From Mitsuaria chitosanitabida ATCC BAA-476 = NBRC 102408 (GTDB taxonomy: Bacteria; Pseudomonadota; Gammaproteobacteria; Burkholderiales; Burkholderiaceae_C): a DNA stretch of 64,000 nucleotides. The stretch lies in assembly GCF_001598255.1 (NCBI RefSeq), contig NZ_BCYP01000030.1, forward strand, positions 1-64,000, read 5' to 3'. The notes beneath the pieces were generated by a model. That model saw only the letters and a list, made by a program, of their open reading frames with translations, searched no databases and was not told the DNA's origin. Shown here piece by piece: positions 1 to 55,008 of this stretch (position 1 is its first letter; the number at the start of each line of letters is the position of its first letter). A program made the translations under genes and the position numbers.

Positions 1-1420
1 ACTCGATGGCGTGGACCTGGTCGGTGCTCAGGCCCGCCAACTGCTTGGTCGACAGAGCGGCGACCTGCTGCGAGGTCAGCGCCACGATGGCGTCCGTGGA
101 CAGCGCGCCGATCTGGGCGGAGCTCAGCGCGGCCACCTGGCCGGTGGTCATGGCCTGGACGTCGTCGGTGTCCATGCCAGCGACTTGCGCGGTCGTCAGC
201 GCGGCGACCTGGGCGGTGCCCAGGGCGCGGATCTGGGCGCTGTTCAGGGCGTTCAGCTCGTCGGTGGCCAGCACGGCCACCTGGCCGGTCGACAGCGCCG
301 CGATCTGCTGCGAGCTCATCGCGGCGACCTGGTCGGAGTTCAGGGCCTGGAACTGGTCGGTGGTCAGGGCGCGCAGCGCGGCGGTGCTCAGCACCTTCAC
401 GTCGTCGGAGCCCAGGGCGGCGACCTGGTCGGTCGTCAGGCCCTTGACCTGGTTGGAGCTCAGCGCCGCGGCCTGCTGCGAGGTCAGGGCGGCGATGGAA
501 TCGGTGCTCAGCACGGCGATCTGGGCCGAGCTCAGCGCGCCGACCTGGGCGGTCGACAGCGCGTGCACGTCGGCGCTGCCCACGCCGGCCAACTGGTCGG
601 TGGTCAGGGCGGCGATCTGGGCCGTGGTGATGGCGCGGACCTGGTCGGTGCCCAGGGCGGCCAGCTCGTCGCTGGCGAACTGGCGGATCTGGGCCGTGGT
701 CAGCGCGCCGATCTGGGCGGTGGTCAGGGCGGCGATCTGGTCGGAATTCAGCGCGGCGATCTGGTCGGTGCCCAGCGCGCGGATGGCGGCGGTGCTCAGG
801 GCGTGGACGGCGTCGGAGCTCAGCGCGGCGGCCTGGCTGGAGTTCAGCGCGCCGGTCTGGGTGCTGGACAGCGCGGCGGCCTGCTGGGTCTGCAACGCGG
901 CGACGCCTTCGGTGGACAGGGCACCGACCTGCTGCGAGCTCAGGGCCTTGACCTGGTCGGTCTTCAGGGCCTGCAGGTCGTCGGAGCTCAGGGTGCTCAT
1001 CAGGCTGGTGCTGATGGCGGCCACTTGCTGGGTGCTCAGCGAGCGGATCTGGTCGGAGCCCAGGGCGTTCAGGTCGTCCGACTCCAGGTTGCGCACCTGC
1101 TGCGTGGTCAGCGCGCCGACCTGGCGGGTGGTCAGCGAGCCGAACTGGTCGGAACCCAGCGCGTTGAGCTGCGCCGAGGTCATGGTCTGGACGGCGGCGG
1201 TGCTCAGCACGCGCAGGTCGTCGGACTGGATGGCGGCGATGTTGGCGGTCGTGAAGAACGACACGGCCTTGGTGCCCAGCGTCGCGAACTGCGACGTCGT
1301 CAGTGCCTGGAACTGATCGGTGGAGAACGCCGCCCAGTCTTCGCTGGTGAGACGGGCCAGCGTGGTCGACGTCAGGGAGGCGATCTCGTCTGTCGTCAGG
1401 TTGGTAATCAGCGATGCCAT
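1..1420 (-). CDS. Giant octapeptide-repeat protein (5' part, runs off the window)
   Basis: Read on the minus strand, the frame opens with ATG at 1420-1418, preceded by a GGAG ribosome site at 1428-1431, and stays open to position 1, so at least 473 residues are present and the C terminus lies outside. The whole visible protein is an unbroken chain of 59 octapeptides without a single slip. The loose consensus is [ST][ST]x[QD][IVL]xAL, for example TTAQIAAL or STDQVHAI. Repeats begin at residue 1, so there is no Sec signal peptide and no separate N-terminal domain. Thr/Ser pairs followed by Asp/Gln and a hydrophobic tail could form short capped helices or a solenoid, but I do not recognise a named family. 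Large repeat proteins in this group are often exported by type I systems with a C-terminal signal, which cannot be seen here. Function unknown; that it is a real gene is well supported. Confidence 0.85.
   Translation of the reverse strand, partial: MASLITNLTTDEIASLTSTTLARLTSEDWAAFSTDQFQALTTSQFATLGTKAVSFFTTANIAAIQSDDLRVLSTAAVQTMTSAQLNALGSDQFGSLTTRQVGALTTQQVRNLESDDLNALGSDQIRSLSTQQVAAISTSLMSTLSSDDLQALKTDQVKALSSQQVGALSTEGVAALQTQQAAALSSTQTGALNSSQAAALSSDAVHALSTAAIRALGTDQIAALNSDQIAALTTAQIGALTTAQIRQFASDELAALGTDQVRAITTAQIAALTTDQLAGVGSADVHALSTAQVGALSSAQIAVLSTDSIAALTSQQAAALSSNQVKGLTTDQVAALGSDDVKVLSTAALRALTTDQFQALNSDQVAAMSSQQIAALSTGQVAVLATDELNALNSAQIRALGTAQVAALTTAQVAGMDTDDVQAMTTGQVAALSSAQIGALSTDAIVALTSQQVAALSTKQLAGLSTDQVHAIE
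5..1228 (-). repeat. Three 408-bp super-repeats, each of 17 octad units
   Basis: Inside the octapeptide-repeat gene, comparing octad n with octad n+17 gives repeated specific matches, so 24-bp units are organised in 408-bp (136-residue) blocks at 821-1228, 413-820 and 5-412. Examples of aligned pairs are TSQQAAAL with TSQQVAAL, STAAIRAL with STAALRAL, ASDELAAL with ATDELNAL, and SSAQIAVL with SSAQIGAL. The first block aligns with the second the same way (GSDQIRSL with GTDQVRAI, QTQQAAAL with TSQQAAAL). The first eight octads (1229-1420) do not fit this pattern well and may be an N-terminal cap. This was found by hand alignment of the translation. Confidence 0.75.
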
Positions 1421-2326
1421 CTTTGAACTCCGTGGACCTATGGGGCAGATGCGCCCATAGGCGCGTGGTATTGATCAGCTTTTTCGAAAGGCACCCGACC
1501 TTCCGGTTGCCGTCACTCGGGTTTTCGGACGCTGAATGACGAACTTGAGCTAGCCCGGAAATGGTAGGGGGCTCCCCCTTCACCTGATGCACACAAAAGG
1601 GCCGGGAGTCGGCCTCAAATCACGGTTACAGATCGCCCGTAAGCCCCGGAACGCGGGGGATCGAAAGACTGCCTGGGCAAGCATTCGCGGCGCCGGTTGG
1701 CGAGGCTTCACGAAAAGTTCAAGGCGGCGTCACGCGCGATGCGTCATCCGGGATCGTCCTGTTCATCGGGGGTGACGGCGTACGGTGCCGGAAGAGGCTC
1801 GCCGGGAAGCGAGAGGGCCTGTGTGCGGTAGCCCGCGGACCACTTGGGCGAGCACTGCATGCAACACGATGTAAGCCGCGTTACGGCAATCGCCCGATGG
1901 CAAGGCTGCCCGGAGGGGGTGGGGATGGCATGCTGTGTCGGTCGTGACATATTCCCGGGGTTTTCGAGTGGCCGGATTTCCGGCGTCCCAGGGTTATGGG
2001 GCAAGTATTTGTCATTGACCCGTATACCCAATATCCGGGCAGTTTTCACGGTGCGGCCGGCACCGGCGGGCCGGTCCGCGGTCGGGGCGCGACGCCGGCC
2101 GGCGTGGGCCGGGCAGGGGGCTCGGAGGGGGTGCCGAGGGAGGTCCTCCTGGCGCCTCGGGCACGCGAGCGGCTGGGAGCGCGCGCGGTGCGTGTAAACT
2201 CCCGGCCTTCACCGTATTTCCGACGCTGCTCAAGGTCGGCCCGCAGGACCCGTCCTGCCGCCGGCGAGTCTGTGACTTCGGGTTGGTGTTTTTCTCAGAA
2301 CTCAGTTCATTCATTCCGGAGCCAAC
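1421..2326. other. 906-bp region without a supported gene
   Basis: No open frame here has a convincing start, codon pattern or recognisable product. The short frames on both strands are Arg/Pro/Gly-rich and look like chance in GC-rich DNA. Near the left edge, 1438-1460 forms a 7-bp perfect inverted repeat (CTATGGG and CCCATAG) in the presumed 5' untranslated region of the octad-repeat gene, just upstream of its ribosome site. The rest must hold the promoter of that gene and possibly of the small gene at 2327, but I cannot place either promoter with confidence. Confidence 0.5.
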
Positions 2327-4402: not shown

Positions 4403-5545
4403 TCACAGCGCCTGCCACAGGGTCGGCGACGTCGCCGGCGTCCAGCCCGCGCCGACATAGGCGGTATGTGCCTGCAGGCAGCGGTACTGCTTGCCCTGGT
4501 AGCTGACGACCTGGCCGGCTGTGTAGCTCGCGCCCTCGACCCAGGTCGTCGACCCCGGCGGCGTCGTCGGCGGCAGCACCACGTCCATCGCGTAGCTCGC
4601 GCCCGAATTGGCGTTCTGCAGGTAGACGTCCATCACGGTCACGCCGCTCGGCACGATCACGCTGCCGCCTTGCAGCGTCCCCACCTTCACGTAGGCCGAG
4701 GTCTGGTTCACCCGCGTCGCGAGCTGGCTCAGCCAGGTCGCCTTGCTGGCGGCCGCGGTCAGCGTGATGGCGATGGTCTCCAGGTCGTTGCCCGCGCCGT
4801 TGAACACGCGCAGCTTCACCTGGCTGCTGGCCGGCAGGTCCTGTGCGGCGGACACCTGGCCGATCTGCTTCAGGTCCGAGGGCGTGCCCGGCGGGGTCGA
4901 TCCGCCGCCGAAGTCCACGTCCGAGCAGGCGTAGAAGGCCTCCGTGCTGTCCGAGCGCTGCCAGGCCGAGAAGATCACGTGCTTGCCGCTGCGTTTGGGC
5001 AGGCCGAGCTTCATCGTGTAGATCGTCTTGCCCGACGTGACGATCTGATCCGGACCGATCTCCGCGACCTGCTCCAGGTCCGACCACCGCAGCGGCGAGG
5101 CCGCCGGGTTCCAGCCGTCCTTGGTCAGGAAGAACTTCCAGTTCAGCGAGCGGTGCGGCGCGGTCGCGTAATAGCGGTATTCGTACTTGCCGTCGGTGCC
5201 TGGCGACCAGGCCGTCGCCGGCCAATCCGAGCGCGCCAGGTCGAAGCCCTTGAACTTCTCCTGACCACCGGCGCAGATCTTCAGATCCGGCGCGGCCGCC
5301 TGGTGGTTGCCGTTGGCGTTGGCCTGGTTGACGCCGTTCCAGTCGTAGATGGCCTGCTCGCCGCCGTAGGCGATCGCGCCCTGGCAGGCGGGCAACGACG
5401 GGTTCTTGAAGCAGTTGTACTGGCGCGAGATCGGGAACTCCGGCGCGCCGTGGGCGAGGGCGGCGCTCGGTGCGAGCGCGGCCAGGAAGCCGATCGAGAA
5501 CGAGGTCAGCGCCAGCGCGCCGCCGAGTCGGGCAGGGGAATGCAT
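4403..5545 (-). CDS. Secreted AA10 lytic polysaccharide monooxygenase, GbpA-like, with chitin-binding module
   Basis: A 380-residue secreted copper enzyme that would oxidatively cleave chitin (or cellulose). ATG at 5545 has an AAGGAGA ribosome site; an in-frame start 20 codons upstream lacks this support. The signal peptide is residues 1-31, ending SAALA, and the mature protein begins with His32 in HGAPEF, the N-terminal copper-brace histidine of AA10 enzymes. The second copper histidine is likely in APHRSLNW, followed by FFLTKDGWNP, a family signature. A Gly/Thr/Pro linker leads to a GbpA domain 2-like region, and the last 45 residues form a CBM5/12 aromatic chitin-binding module. It is divergent from a LysR regulator. 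Assignment to AA10 is firm; substrate is inferred. Confidence 0.92.
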   Translation of the reverse strand: MHSPARLGGALALTSFSIGFLAALAPSAALAHGAPEFPISRQYNCFKNPSLPACQGAIAYGGEQAIYDWNGVNQANANGNHQAAAPDLKICAGGQEKFKGFDLARSDWPATAWSPGTDGKYEYRYYATAPHRSLNWKFFLTKDGWNPAASPLRWSDLEQVAEIGPDQIVTSGKTIYTMKLGLPKRSGKHVIFSAWQRSDSTEAFYACSDVDFGGGSTPPGTPSDLKQIGQVSAAQDLPASSQVKLRVFNGAGNDLETIAITLTAAASKATWLSQLATRVNQTSAYVKVGTLQGGSVIVPSGVTVMDVYLQNANSGASYAMDVVLPPTTPPGSTTWVEGASYTAGQVVSYQGKQYRCLQAHTAYVGAGWTPATSPTLWQAL

Positions 5546-5838
5546 CAAGGTCTCCTTGAAGAATGGAAGAAACAGAGGGATGCGCCCCGATGCGTGGCCC
5601 GACACGACACCAAAGCGATGCCACCATAGGACCTATGGCAGACCAAAACAAGTCGGGAAGCGGTAACGGTTGTCGCCGAGGCGGTGGGGCGAGCCCGTGG
5701 CTGCGGGCTTGAGCGTTCCCGGATCGCCACGTTCCATGAAAGTTTCAAGACTTCGCGACTGACGAAGTGGTTATCATGAACACCCATAGTCTTGCTCTTT
5801 GAGCGAAGGCTAAAGTTCAACTCAGCCGCCGCCACGCC

Positions 5839-26712: not shown

Positions 26713-26788
<76 letters not shown>

Positions 26789-26830
26789 AATTTCGGTTTG
26801 TGTGGCGCGCGGTTCAAGGAAGAAGGTTTA

Positions 26831-26906
26831 GTCCCCTTCGTCTAGAGGCCTAGGACACCACCCTTTCACGGTGGCTACAGGGGTTCGAATCCCCTAGGGG
26901 ACGCCA
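26831..26906 (+). tRNA. tRNA-Glu(TTC), copy 1
   Basis: A 76-base cloverleaf with encoded CCA. The acceptor stem pairs GTCCCCT with AGGGGAC. The anticodon loop CTTTCAC gives TTC. It lies 42 bases after tRNA-Ala. Confidence 0.95.
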
Positions 26907-27089
26907 AGTTTTCGAGCTTGGTTGCTTTCCTGGAGATTGAACGAGAAAATCGAAAAATTCTTCGGAAATCGATTTGATCGTTGTCAAAATCAGGTATAGT
27001 AACGAAATCGACGCGGCGCTGACATCAAGCAGTTGATTGAGGCGATGCGATAGAGTCTGATGCGACGGATCGAAAGATCTTGAGTATCT

Positions 27090-27166
27090 GGAGTGGTAGT
27101 TCAGTTGGTTAGAATACCGGCCTGTCACGCCGGGGGTCGCGGGTTCGAGCCCCGTCCACTCCGCCA
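27090..27166 (+). tRNA. tRNA-Asp(GTC), copy 1
   Basis: A 77-base cloverleaf with encoded CCA. The acceptor stem pairs GGAGTGG with CCACTCC. The anticodon loop CTGTCAC gives GTC. It lies 183 bases after tRNA-Glu, with a possible promoter in between. Confidence 0.95.
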
Positions 27167-27215
27167 ACACATAGTTGAAACTCGGGCTGCGTACCGGTTC
27201 GATGCGAAAGCATTC

Positions 27216-27291
<76 letters not shown>

Positions 27292-27339
27292 AGATTCCTT
27301 CGGGAGTCTGGGCGCAGACCGAGAGTCAACGACAGTCCA

Positions 27340-27415
27340 GTCCCCTTCGTCTAGAGGCCTAGGACACCACCCTTTCACGGTGGCTACAGGGGTTCGAATC
27401 CCCTAGGGGACGCCA
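27340..27415 (+). tRNA. tRNA-Glu(TTC), copy 2
   Basis: Identical to the tRNA-Glu at 26831, including encoded CCA and the TTC anticodon. It lies 48 bases after the second tRNA-Ala. Confidence 0.95.
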
Positions 27416-27517
27416 AGTTTGACAAGGCTTGGTTGCATCGCGGTTCTGAATGGAACTGGCGGCTTGCAACGAAACTTGTCCGCGAACAAGAATGAGGTGC
27501 TTAACAACCTCGTCTTA

Positions 27518-27594
27518 GGAGTGGTAGTTCAGTTGGTTAGAATACCGGCCTGTCACGCCGGGGGTCGCGGGTTCGAGCCCCGTCCACTCCGCCA
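27518..27594 (+). tRNA. tRNA-Asp(GTC), copy 2
   Basis: Identical to the tRNA-Asp at 27090. It is the last tRNA of the cluster and is followed within nine bases by a strong terminator. Confidence 0.95.
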
Positions 27595-46774: not shown

Positions 46775-46983
46775 GTCGGTCTCGAAGCGCGGCTCCGCGG
46801 AGTCGCCGATCTCTTCGTCAGAGCAAGGCGGGTGCCCGATGGCGACCTGACGAGCGAAACGAGGCTCCTCGTCATCGGTCCCGCCTCGCGCCGACCGGGA
46901 GCGACCACCGCGCCTCGCGCGTGGGCGCGTCGCTTGCCGCATGGCAACTCCCGTCGCGTCGCCGACTCGCCATCGAGGTCCGC

Positions 46984-48006
46984 ATGCCCACTCGCGCCGC
47001 TGCTTCGAGCACCCGTTCCCACGCCCCCCGCAAGGCGCCCCCGCGCGCCGCCGCTCCCGCGCGCAAGCGGGCCTCCAACGCGGACCACGCCGGACATGGC
47101 GGACACCGATCCGGCCCAACGGGTCACGGCAAGTCCTCCGACGCCAAGACCGCCCGCGGCGACAGCGACACCGCGCCCGCCGCGCGCCGCGCGATCTGGA
47201 AGGGCGCGATCAGCTTCGGTCTGCTGCATGTGCCGGTGGCGCTGTATCCCGCGTCGCGCGACCAGGGCGTGGACTTCGACTGGCTGGACAAGCGCAGCAT
47301 GGACCCGGTCGGCTACAAGCGCATCAACAAGCGCACCGGCAAGGACATCGACAAGGCGCAGATCGTCAAGGGCGTGAGGCAGGACAACGGCGATTACGTG
47401 CTCGTCTCCGACGACGAGATCCGCAAGGCCTATCCCACGACCACGCAGACCATCGAGATCGAGACCTTCGTGCCCGCCACGCAGGTCTCCTTCGTCTATC
47501 TGGAGAAGCCGTACTACCTCGAACCGGTCGGCAAGGCGAGCAAGGTCTACGCCTTGCTGCGCGAGGCGATGGCGGACTCCGGTCTGATCGCGATCGCGCG
47601 GCTGGTGATCCACAGCAAGGAGCACCTGGCCGCGCTGCTGCCGGCCGGGCCGGCGCTGATGATCGGGATGCTGCGCTGGGCCAACGAGATCCGTCCTTGC
47701 GAGGACCTGAACCTCCCGGCCGAAGGCAAGTCCGCGCACGGCTTCAAGGCGGCGGAGCTGCAGATGGCGCGCCAGCTCATCGACGAGATGAGCACCGACT
47801 GGCACCCCGAGGACTATCACGACGAGTTCACCGCCGCGATCCGGCGGTTGATCGCGCGCAAGGTCGAGCAGGGCAAGACCGAGACCGTCACGCCGCTGGA
47901 GGCCGAACCCGACACGGGCGCCCGCGAGGAGGGCGGCAAGGTGGTCGACCTGACCGAGCTGCTGCGTCGCAGCCTGGGTGGGAAGAAGAAGCCCAAGGCG
48001 GCCTGA
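46984..48006 (+). CDS. ku: DNA end-binding protein Ku
   Basis: A 340-residue bacterial Ku that binds double-strand breaks and recruits LigD for end joining. The N terminus has about 60 basic Ala/Arg/Lys/His-rich residues, then the Ku core starts RAIWKGAISFGLLHVPVAL and runs to about residue 310 (beta-barrel ring). A Lys-rich tail KKKPKAA ends the protein, as in other bacterial Ku where it aids DNA sliding. ATG at 46984 has GAGG upstream. ligD follows after two bases, so they are one operon. A 60-residue basic N-terminal extension is longer than usual. Confidence 0.93.
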   Translation: MPTRAAASSTRSHAPRKAPPRAAAPARKRASNADHAGHGGHRSGPTGHGKSSDAKTARGDSDTAPAARRAIWKGAISFGLLHVPVALYPASRDQGVDFDWLDKRSMDPVGYKRINKRTGKDIDKAQIVKGVRQDNGDYVLVSDDEIRKAYPTTTQTIEIETFVPATQVSFVYLEKPYYLEPVGKASKVYALLREAMADSGLIAIARLVIHSKEHLAALLPAGPALMIGMLRWANEIRPCEDLNLPAEGKSAHGFKAAELQMARQLIDEMSTDWHPEDYHDEFTAAIRRLIARKVEQGKTETVTPLEAEPDTGAREEGGKVVDLTELLRRSLGGKKKPKAA

Positions 48007-48008
48007 CC

Positions 48009-50813
<2,805 letters not shown>

Positions 50814-53800
50814 GCAGCGGCACGCGCAGCTCGAAACTCGCACCCGTGCCGATGCCGTCGCTGGTGGCGTCGACGCGCCCGCCATGCATCTCGATCAGCC
50901 GGCGGACCAGCGACAGCCCGATCCCGAGCCCGCCTTGCGACCGGTCCAGCGTCCGGTCGCCCTGGACGAAGAGATCGAACATCGTGGCCTGCAGGTCCGG
51001 CGGGATGCCGACCCCGTCGTCCCGGATCCGGATCACCGCCATGCCGCCGTCCGACGGCGTCGGCGGCTGCTCGGCATTCACGCTCAGCTCGATCCGGCCC
51101 TCCGGGTCGGTGTACTTCGCGGCGTTGGTCAGCACGTTGGCCACGCACTGCACCAGCCGCGCCTGGTCCGCGCGGACCACCAGCGGCCGGCCCGCCGAGA
51201 CCGAGAAGCGATGCCGCTTCTCGCGCATCAGGGGCTCCACCGTCTCGACCGCCTGGGCGATCACCTCCGGAAGCATCACCGGCGTCAGCTGCAGCTCGAT
51301 GCGCCCCTCGGTGATGCGCGAGATGTCCAGCAGGTCGTCGACCAGCCGGGTCAAGGTCTCCACCTGGCGCCGGATGATGGCCACCATCTGCCGGGACCGC
51401 TCGTCCGGCAGGCCCAGCCGCGCCAGCACGTCGCCGGCGCTGCGGATCGGCGCGATCGGATTGCGCAGCTCGTGGGCCAGCATGGCGAGGAACTGGTCCT
51501 TCTGCCGATCCGCCGCCTCGAGCCGCCGCCGCGCCTTCAGGTGGGCGGAGATCTCCCGGAAATAGCACACCACCCCGGCCGAGCCGTCCGGCAGCGGGAT
51601 GCGGTTGATCTGCCACTCGTAGGCCTCGGTCGTGCCCAGGTCGCTGCGCGCCTGGATGAACTCGGGCGTGTAGTAGGGCTCGCCCGTGGCCCAGGTCCGC
51701 GCGAACAGCGCCACGATCTGGTCCGCCAGCGGATGCCCCCATTGCCGCGCCACCAGCTCGTCGAAGCGGCGGTCCAGCAGGTCCGGCGCGTTGCCGAAGC
51801 TCGCGCGCGCCGTCGGATTCGCCTCCCGCATCCGGAAGGCCGTGCCGTCGTGCGCGACCAGGAAGACGCCCAGCGGGGCCTCGTTCAGCAGGGTCTCGAA
51901 CTGCTCGGTGCGCAGCCGGAAGGCAGCCTCCGCCGCCTGGCGCATGCGCCGCAGCTCCAGCAGCGCCCCCAGCCGCGCGAGCAGCTCGCGCGCGGAGAAG
52001 GGCTTGATCAGGTAGTCGTCCGCGCCGGCGTCCAGGCCCTCGATGCGGGCCTCCTCGCCGGCCCGCGCCGACAGCAGCACCACCGGCACGCCGCCCAGCC
52101 GCTCGTCCGCGCGGATCGCGCCGAGCAGGGCCAGGCCGTCCAGCCGGGGCATCATGACGTCGCTGACGATCAGGGCCGGCGGCTCCCGGCGCGCGGCCTC
52201 CAGGGCCTGCAGACCGTCGGCCACCACTTCCACCGCGTAGTAGGGCGACAGCAGGTCGCGCAGGTAGCCCCGCATGTCGGCGTTGTCGTCGGCCAGCAGC
52301 ACCCGCGCGCCGAAGTTCGGCGCGAAGCGCCGGTCCGGCGCGGGCTGGGCGCCCGTCACGTCGGCCGCCGGCGGCGCGATGTCCGGCATCGGCAGCCAGC
52401 GCAGCGCCTCCTCGACATAGGCGCGCGCGCCGGTGGTGCTGGCGGGCGCCTGCGCGGCCGCGCGCGCGGTCTCGATCCGCTCGGCGGGGAGGTGCGCCGA
52501 GCCCAGCGGCACCCGCACGCGGAACAGCGATCCCTCGCCCATCACGCTGGCGGCCTCGATGTGGCCGCCATGCAGCTTCACCAGCTCCTGCACCAGCGCC
52601 AGGCCGATGCCCGAGCCCTCGTGCGAGCGTCCCTCCGCCCCGGCCACGCGATGGAAGCGCTCGAAGACCCGCGGCAACTCGTCCGGCGGGATGCCGGTAC
52701 CCGTGTCGGCGACCTCCAGCATCGCCTCCCGCGGATCGTGCCCCTGGGCGCGCAGGCGCACGGTGACCGCGCCGCGCAGCGTGAACTTGAAGGCGTTGGA
52801 CAGCAGGTTCAGGACGACCTTCTCCCACATCTCGCGGTCGACGAAGACCGGCTCCGGCAGGGCCGGGCAGTCGACGACGAAGTCCAGTCCCGCCCGCTCC
52901 ATCGCGGAGCGGAAGGTGCTCGCCAGATCGCGGGTCAGCGCCGCCAGGTCGGTGGCCTCGTAGCGGGCGAGCGCGCGGCCCGCCTCGATGCGCGAGAAGT
53001 CCAGCAGCGTGTTGACCAGCCGCTGCAGCCGGCCCGCGTTGCGCAGCGCCAGCGCCAGGCGGTCGCGCTGCGGCGCGTCCAGGCCCGGCGCGGTGAGCAG
53101 CTCCTCCAGCGGGCCCAGCATCAGCGTGAGCGGCGTGCGGAACTCATGGCTGACGTTGGAGAAGAACGCGGTCTTGGCGCGGTCCAGCTCGGCCAGCGCC
53201 TCGGCCCGCCGCCGCTCGGCCTCGTAGGCCATCGCATCGGCCAGCGCCGCCGCGACCTGGCCCGCGACCAGCCGCAGGAAGGCCCGCGAGGCCTCGTCGT
53301 CCGGGCGACGCGGGCTGAGGCCCGCGACCAGGAAGCCCGCCGGCTCCTTGCCCGGACTCTTGAGCGGCAGCAGCACCGCGCGCTCGACCCGTTCGGGCCA
53401 GGGCGGCAGGTCGATCCCGATCCCGAGCGCGGCCAGCGAGGGCAAGGCCTGCGCCGCCTCGCCCCCGTAGAGCGCCCGCAGCGGCCAGCCGTCCGGCGGG
53501 TCGACCAGGCTCAGCCGCGCCGGCAACTGGCCGGCGGCGCGCTCGCCCGCGCAGCCGACGCGATGGGCGTGCCGGCCGTCCGGCTCGGTCAGGTAGAGGC
53601 CGGCGAAGGGCAGGTCCAGCGGGAACTCCGCCAGCACCTCGCAGGTCCGGCGCGCGCATTCGGCGGCGTCGTCGGCGCCCACGGTGCGCGCCGCCAGGTC
53701 CCGCAGCACCCGCAGCCGGCGCTCGCCGACAACGCGGTCGGTGACCTCCGTGACCACGCACAGCATGCCGGTGACCCGCAGCGCGTCGTCGTAGGCGGGG

Positions 53801-54513
53801 CTGTAGGAGAAGGTGTGGTACGTCTCCTCGGGGAAGCCGCTGCGCTCGAGGAACAGCAGCAGGCCCTCGTCCCAGGTGGCCTCGCCGGTGGTGAGCACGT
53901 GCCGGATGCGGCTGTAGGCGGCGTCCCAGACCTCGGCCCAGACGCGCTCCGAGCGGGCCCCCAGCGCCCATTCGCGCTTCAGGCCCAGCGTCGGCAGGTA
54001 GGCGTCGTTGCACAGGAAGGTCATCTCCGGCCCCCACGCCATCCACATCGCGTAGCGGGAGTCCAGCATCATCCGCACGGTGGTCTTGAGCGACCGCGGC
54101 CAGCCGTCGGGCGCGCCCAGCGGCGTGGCGGACCAGTCCAGCGCGCGCATGCGCTCGCCCATCTCGCCCCCACCGTCCAGGAAGTGCCGCCACTGCGGCG
54201 GGGCGACCGGCGCGATCGCGCCGGCGGCGTCGGTGCTGCCGTCGACGCCGGTGGCGGGGCGGAGAGGCGGGGCCGTGGCGTCATTGCCGGCGGGCTTGGG
54301 AAGCATCAGGGCGGAGTCCTCGAGGCAAAGGGGCGGGACGGCGCGGGGCAGTCTACAAACGCCAAGCAAGCGGCGGACCCGGGACGACCCTCGCCGAACA
54401 CGGCGACGGCGCTCGCCGGCGGGCACCTCGCGGGTGGGCTGTCTCGGGAACGACATTTGCCAAGAGCACACTTCGCCCGATCGCCCGGATCGGGCATGAC
54501 AAGAGGAGGTGCC

Positions 54514-55008
54514 ATGAGAAAGACTCACCTGATCACGCCCGCCAACCTGAGCGCGGCCTGGGCCGCGGCCCTGGCCCTGGCCATCGCGCTGCCGGTGTCG
54601 GCGCAGACGACGCAGCCCCCGGCGGCGGACGCCAGGTCCACCCCCACGCCGCAGGTCACCGAGGCGACCGATGCCGCCACCAAGTCCGCCACCGCCTGGC
54701 TGCGCCAGATCGACGGCGGCAAGTATCCCGAGAGCTGGGACCAGGCGTCCAAGAGCTTCCGCGACGAGGTGGCGCGCAACGACTGGAACGCGGCCCTGAC
54801 GTCGCTGCGCACGCCGCTGGGCGCGCCGACCACGCGCACGCTCAAGTCCGCGCAACTGACCCGCGAGCTGCCCAATGCGCCGCCCGGGGAGTACGTGGTG
54901 ATCCAGTTCGACACGGCCTTCGAGAAGAAGCCCGCGTCGGTCGAGACGGTGGTCGCCATCCGCGATCCCGACCGGAACTGGCGGGTGACGGGCTACTTCA
55001 TCAAGTAG
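54514..55008 (+). CDS. Exported DUF4019-like protein
   Basis: A 164-residue protein with a signal peptide: basic MRKTHLI, hydrophobic AAWAAALALAIAL and the cleavage-type VSAQ near residue 30. The mature part has a conserved arrangement (ATAWLRQIDGGKYPESWDQA, then DWNAALTSLRTPLGAP and YVVIQFDTAF) that fits DUF4019, a family of unknown function, probably periplasmic. A very strong AGGAGGT ribosome site precedes the ATG. It diverges from the hybrid kinase across 207 bases, which include a GCCCGAT/ATCGGGC inverted repeat at 54475-54495, so joint regulation is possible. Confidence 0.75.
   Translation: MRKTHLITPANLSAAWAAALALAIALPVSAQTTQPPAADARSTPTPQVTEATDAATKSATAWLRQIDGGKYPESWDQASKSFRDEVARNDWNAALTSLRTPLGAPTTRTLKSAQLTRELPNAPPGEYVVIQFDTAFEKKPASVETVVAIRDPDRNWRVTGYFIK

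Follow-up and report, generated by a model that had tools for sequence, protein, structure and literature searches.

The window analysed here is a stretch of 64,000 nucleotides from Mitsuaria chitosanitabida ATCC BAA-476 = NBRC 102408, taken from the forward strand of contig NZ_BCYP01000030.1. At its start lies a minus-strand frame (1420..2) that has an ATG at 1420, is open throughout and runs off base 1. The features at this end of the window are:

2..1420, minus strand: 5' part of a giant ALTTAQ-repeat gene (473 codons, residues 1-473, 59 octads), an open frame matching PF20080
311..424, minus strand: best single PF20080 repeat match in the window (56.7 bits, E=1.5e-14)
1428..1431, minus strand: GGAG, a likely ribosome binding site 7 bases before the ATG, read from the letters
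1421..2326, no strand: intergenic stretch upstream of the giant gene, with no PF20080 match listed there

The intergenic stretch presumably holds the promoter of the giant gene, and the next plausible gene past it, judged by eye, appears to start near 2327 on the plus strand.

Four further features were recorded in the window. An AA10 lytic polysaccharide monooxygenase with GbpA_2 and CBM5/12 domains is encoded at 4403-5605 on the minus strand and is probably chitin-active. The tRNA trio Ala-Glu-Asp occurs twice in tandem with the same anticodons (26713-27594, plus strand). LigD, in the order phosphoesterase, ligase, primase-polymerase, lies within a 1290-codon open frame (46941-50813, plus strand), and a 1374-codon frame (50884-55008, plus strand) had DUF4019, in its last 100 residues, as its only Pfam match at 1e-8.

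A giant octad-repeat gene cut by the assembly

The window gene starts with MASLITNL and was read by eye as octads from there on. Octads in register filled the visible gene (473 residues, 59 octads), as an earlier sequence-only reading had claimed, and we likewise saw, by eye, no N-terminal export signal in the window protein, in agreement with its report of no signal peptide. The strict consensus given in that reading, [ST][ST]x[QD][IVL]xAL, fitted 12 of the 59 octads, compared with a mean of 0.02 and a maximum of 1 in 1000 shuffles, and a softer form fitted 57 of 59. Residue identity in the window protein was 0.36 at a lag of 8 and averaged 0.07 at lags that are not multiples of 8. The strongest lag was 136 residues (17 octads), with an identity of 0.51, so the 408-bp higher-order unit is real.

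Base 1 of the window is the end of contig C30 (G000:C30, 180,514 bp) and not just the window edge, which means that the giant gene has been cut by the assembly. The missing end, which the sequence-only reading had placed beyond position 1, was found on contig C29 of the same genome (61,329 bp). This contig ends inside a minus-strand, 2,390-codon frame of the same repeats, and the frame finishes with a non-repeat module and a tail. Directly after it lies a paralogue, about 1,500 residues long, whose ending is of the same type. The description of a protein made only of octapeptides held for the visible part but failed for the full protein, which ends in a non-repeat putative calcium module and tail.

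The uncut gene encodes 3,151-3,154 residues in the seven Roseateles-type orthologues compared; these are nearly all octads and end in an FrpC-like module. The window part aligned at residues 1-473 of seven intact orthologues (shifted by 4 in L049, a matter of start choice), and the best ungapped register of the 2,390-residue C29 frame ran from orthologue residue 769, with 75-77% identity in the seven compared and 57-59% in the next best register. These two placements leave an unassembled middle of 295 residues, or 2 x 136 + 23, and a gap of two 136-residue units plus 23 matches what the repeat phase demands. Against the corresponding first 473 residues, the window part showed 74-82% identity to eight intact Roseateles-type orthologues and 67% and 47% to two more distant ones. 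We conclude that the gene encodes ~3,150 residues, with some 360 ALTTAQ octads, the putative calcium module and a short tail, and that its first 15% lies in the window. It is extremely improbable that the fragment seen in the window comes from a degenerate or broken copy, with the C29 repeats forming a gene of their own: C30 and C29 are unjoined in the assembly, with no exact end overlap and only shared repeat words (6 shared 25-mers), but the 473 codons have no stop, the intact 3,151-3,154-residue orthologues match both pieces in order, and the gap size is the one predicted from the phase.

Repeat family, fold and C-terminal module

The sequence-only reading had recognised no known family and had named a profile match to a described repeat family as evidence against itself. 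Such a match was found: the window protein belongs to Pfam PF20080, the ALTTAQ repeat (E=4e-124; 404.4 bits, curated cut-off 26.4), with matches in 17 stretches. The repeat is the same as that of the Pfam entry, far above its cut-off, but the entry names a repeat and no system. PF20080 was found in 16 of 16 genomes of the genus, in 5 of 20 from the other genera of the family and in 0 of 24 from the other families of the order. It was also present in 19 of 151 genomes of the family to which the Rhizobium cremeum genome described below (L087) belongs.

By sequence, the closest solved chain was HeliScrew4 (PDB 9zem; E=1.9e-18 over 107 residues), which shares the octad repeat in the pattern L-[ST]-P-[ED]-[QK]-[IF]-A-A. 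It differs in having 120 residues and in that Pro replaces the second Ser/Thr in 10 of its 12 octads. An AlphaFold2 prediction of the window part, for which the alignment input was 10 orthologues, gave a pLDDT of 95.6 and a pTM of 0.81, with about one helix of 4-6 residues per octad. The octad solenoid suggested from the letters is thus consistent with both the HeliScrew4 match and the predicted helix per octad. The matches listed by Foldseek and VIA were only middling, and 9zem was not among them. In open-licence PubMed Central we found no paper on the ALTTAQ repeat or linking it to a glycosyltransferase or secretion system, and none on HeliScrew4.

In the predicted helix starts, the first Ser/Thr of the pair sits at the N-cap and the second at N1. 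The N-cap position was S/T in 66% of octads, and Gly and Asn also occurred there. The second position carried Ser/Thr in 58 of 59 window octads and in 264 of 268 octads of the C29 part. This hydroxyl was kept in every octad (58 of 58) of nine orthologues and, in the tenth, in 98%; that orthologue is only 47% identical, and half of these positions in it swap Ser and Thr. The second hydroxyl seems dispensable for the fold, given that N1 is Pro in 10 of the 12 HeliScrew4 octads. The paralogue was laxer at this position (69% S/T, 11 Pro of 153).

FrpC is a type I-secreted protein. The C-terminal module of the orthologue L042 is homologous to the FrpC self-processing module (6sjw, 6sjx), matching 6sjw with E=5.8e-38 over 168 residues, and may bind calcium. 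The FrpC module is described as cleaving an Asp-Pro bond (PMC7078468). The residue before that Pro in 34 pattern hits from the fetched loci was Thr in 29, Ser in 5 and Asp in 0; as L042 and L144 are the same gene, these are 33 distinct copies. In contrast to FrpC, Thr or Ser takes the place of the cleaved-bond Asp in 33 of 33 distinct copies from ALTTAQ proteins, and FrpC-type cleavage should therefore be absent. A Pfam scan (E<=0.001) of the last 400 residues of L042 found no RTX nonapeptides, only ALTTAQ and EF-hand_5. The five rhizobial repeat-protein tails examined were without the calcium module, so the export signal is not uniform.

GT41 and type I secretion genes associated with the repeat

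We compared 78 relatives' loci from named genomes by ORF clustering, with flanks of at most 10 kb. The most widely shared non-repeat neighbour was a TPR-GT41 glycosyltransferase, present in the fetched flanks of 24 of the 78 loci; going by the organism names, 16 of these are alpha-, 7 beta- and 1 gammaproteobacterial. From GT41 density, 0.2-0.5 GT41-bearing loci were expected, a rough figure in which one density assumes 4.5-Mb genomes. The fetched flanks of the 11 closest loci (L042-L052) held no GT41. Other neighbour clusters that spanned the groups were set aside as frames inside the repeats or general ABC-transporter ATPases, judged by their positions and at most one Pfam scan each.

A single 22-kb stretch of Rhizobium cremeum (L087) takes in the repeat gene together with GT41 and ABC/HlyD genes, in Duganella aceris (L102) the repeat genes were followed by ABC and HlyD genes, and the 13-kb locus of a Roseateles MAG (L059) included genes for HlyD and OEP as well as part of one for ABC. 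The genome of the window has, on contig C7, an operon of GT41, ABC (798 aa), HlyD (402 aa) and an efflux-type protein of the outer membrane, which shares 63% identity over 423 residues with an OEP confirmed by Pfam. The C7 GT41 was the best of the three GT41s of this genome for all six neighbour GT41 queries; its other type I system (C13) and GT41s (C6, C26) were worse matches than the C7 genes. A complete ABC-HlyD-TolC-type system was found, strongly associated with the repeat protein by genome association. The sequence-only reading had asked whether type I secretion genes lie near the gene, and in its own genome they turned out to be on another contig (C7). Its expectation that the far end of the gene and type I secretion would hold the clue was borne out by the C-terminal module and the associated GT41/T1SS operon.

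We then surveyed 200 genomes of the family, counting a genome as repeat-bearing at E<=1e-9. There were 134 GT41 matches, and the cut-offs for the C7 types were set after the scores had been seen, in gaps from 458 to 344 bits (GT41) and from 835 to 632 bits (ABC). Repeats were present in 47 genomes, the C7-type GT41 in 36 and the C7-type ABC in 38. The C7-type GT41 occurred in 36 of the 47 repeat-bearing genomes and in 0 of the 153 others (Fisher 2.7e-30, which ignores relatedness), and at genus level in 25 of 35 and 0 of 106 (5e-20, again ignoring relatedness). The corresponding figures for the C7-type ABC were 37 of 47 and 1 of 153, with G082 the genome that carries this ABC type and no repeats at E<=1e-9. 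A general GT41 (E<=1e-60) occurred in 45 of the 153 genomes without repeats, which shows that the link is to the C7 subtype. Wherever a genome had both GT41 and ABC (32 genomes), the two genes were adjacent, at a spacing of -27 to 358 bp. Approximate distances between GT41 and repeats could be taken in 26 of the 36 C7-type genomes, those with repeat coordinates among the matches listed: on one contig they were 9-34 kb apart in 18, one pair was 68 kb and that of G171 427 kb apart, and 6 were on different contigs, including those of the window's genome. Eleven of the 47 repeat-bearing genomes were without the C7-type GT41 and 6 were without both the GT41 and ABC types; in G027 and G200 another GT41 lay 5-6 kb from the repeats.

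A cluster in G022 links the repeat gene with GT41, ABC and HlyD; its further genes, for an OEP, a methyltransferase, GT2, hexapeptide-acyltransferase-type proteins, FdtA and a DegT aminotransferase, are ones that we take to be typical of amino-deoxy-sugar donors. The Roseateles lineage differs: behind its repeat genes come a GT4-type glycosyltransferase, a DUF5672 protein and an unassigned 335-residue protein, in an order shared by the window's genome and G005 (87-91% identical). A UDP-galactopyranose mutase-like gene was seen in the flanks of rhizobial repeat genes (L115, L088 and 12 other loci; for this 14-locus cluster the Pfam assignment is that of L115), hinting at a galactofuranose donor. 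The neighbouring GT41 protein of Duganella/Rugamonas was long (L118, L065, L086 and L117, all but L118 by clustering only), and that of L118 has 1104 aa and also carries methyltransferase and weak GT2 domains.

The share of octads with a second-position hydroxyl was scored in 77 of the 78 loci, L112 being below the repeat filter. The idea that an in-locus GT41 goes with a higher share failed (median 0.76 with GT41, n=24; 0.91 without, n=53). A prediction fixed beforehand, that the second hydroxyl is relaxed where a genome has no GT41, was weakly borne out: the two of 52 genomes without GT41, one of them already seen before the prediction, scored 0.35 and 0.62, and 9 of the 50 genomes with GT41 were as low (P about 0.04). 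This test covered 50 of the 78 loci together with G094 and G063; left out were L042-L057, L059, L061-L063, L071-L073, L075, L080, L085, L104 and L112, and L163 (G073) has no hydroxyl score. The lowest share was that of G094 (0.10), yet this genome has a weak GT41 match (3.2e-25). Octad proteins low in second-position Ser/Thr were seen in L113 (Mycoplana, 0.21), L111 (Ensifer aridi, 0.35) and L168 (G094, 0.10), and, like HeliScrew4, they were rich in Pro (0.29, 0.23 and 0.28, respectively).

A proposed route of glycosylation and export

These genome comparisons suggest that an export pump and a sugar-attaching enzyme are dedicated to the repeat protein. The association of the repeat protein with GT41 and the type I system was both genome-wide and positional. 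That the repeat protein is itself the substrate of the GT41 and the type I system, with glycan on the pairs, and makes an extended surface or matrix fibre, we consider fairly likely. The octads would form a continuous solenoid of very short helices, in a protein that carries no N-terminal signal. A dedicated TPR-GT41 (OGT/FlmG-like) glycosyltransferase would modify the Ser/Thr pairs of the octads in the cytoplasm, and export would be by the type I system (ABC, HlyD, TolC-like) encoded in the GT41's operon. Outside the cell the product would be a sugar-coated fibre, with adhesion, matrix or shielding as candidate roles. Repeat, module, enzyme and pump are together explained most simply by cytoplasmic O-glycosylation of the Ser/Thr array of a giant solenoid by GT41, followed by dedicated type I export, and this is probably the route taken. 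We are more tentative, at slightly below even confidence, in proposing a dedicated glyco-export system in which the operon of GT41 and type I pump sugar-coats the solenoid, with its hundreds of regularly spaced Ser/Thr pairs, before it is threaded out. The product would be a bacterial analogue of the mucin bottlebrush, built on a rigid core of helices. Alpha-, beta- and gammaproteobacteria all have related pairs of repeat gene and GT41.

Rather unlikely, in our judgement, is an unglycosylated giant fibre secreted by the type I system, with the GT41 modifying another exported protein, lipid or polysaccharide and the Ser/Thr pairs being structural, as a helix N-cap plus hydrogen-bond ladder. The first position of the pair does behave as a helix N-cap, with Q, D or E three residues on, and the presence of GT41 was no clean predictor of hydroxyl share; other TPR glycosyltransferases serve flagellin, FlmG being an example (PMC7591256). 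However, the second position, which is Pro in most HeliScrew4 octads, is the best kept in the Roseateles-type protein, and it is kept as a hydroxyl and not as one residue. GT41 also co-occurs with the repeats, and is linked to them, in three classes, which speaks against this reading as well.

It is quite improbable that the repeat protein remains in the cytoplasm as a scaffold and that the type I genes export other products. Such a protein would fit the lack of an N-terminal signal (by eye) and of an RTX nonapeptide match (Pfam, last 400 residues of L042), but the C-terminal module is related to FrpC, a complete T1SS lies in the GT41's operon, and 37 of the 38 genomes with that ABC type carry the repeats.

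The proposed glycosylated and exported fibre can be set beside two known systems. Giant RTX adhesins are type I-secreted, lack an N-terminal signal and have a terminal calcium module and stalks of Ig-like or cadherin-like domains. The ALTTAQ protein resembles them in size, in having no N-terminal signal (by eye), in its terminal putative calcium module and, by association, in its type I system. It differs in that its stalk consists of helical octads and not of Ig-like or cadherin-like domains, that a glycosyltransferase lies in the secretion operon, and that RTX nonapeptides were not found (L042). FlmG is a GT41 enzyme. In Caulobacter it combines TPR with a glycosyltransferase and modifies flagellin in the cytoplasm before flagellar export (PMC7591256), and the enzyme proposed here would be alike in architecture, in acting in the cytoplasm and in acting before export. 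The FlmG substrate is flagellin, which leaves through the flagellar exporter, whereas the present case involves a giant repeat protein and, by association only, a type I system. The ALTTAQ repeat was already known; the coupling of a GT41-T1SS operon to it and the SPM-like ending on an ALTTAQ protein were not found in print (open-licence PubMed Central).

Proteins with the ALTTAQ repeat can be thousands of residues long. Should the association prove functional, the repeat family gains a job and a group of bacterial OGT-like enzymes gains substrates. Protein O-glycosylation would then be coupled to type I secretion, and the octads would offer an evenly spaced array of acceptors that is easy to assay.
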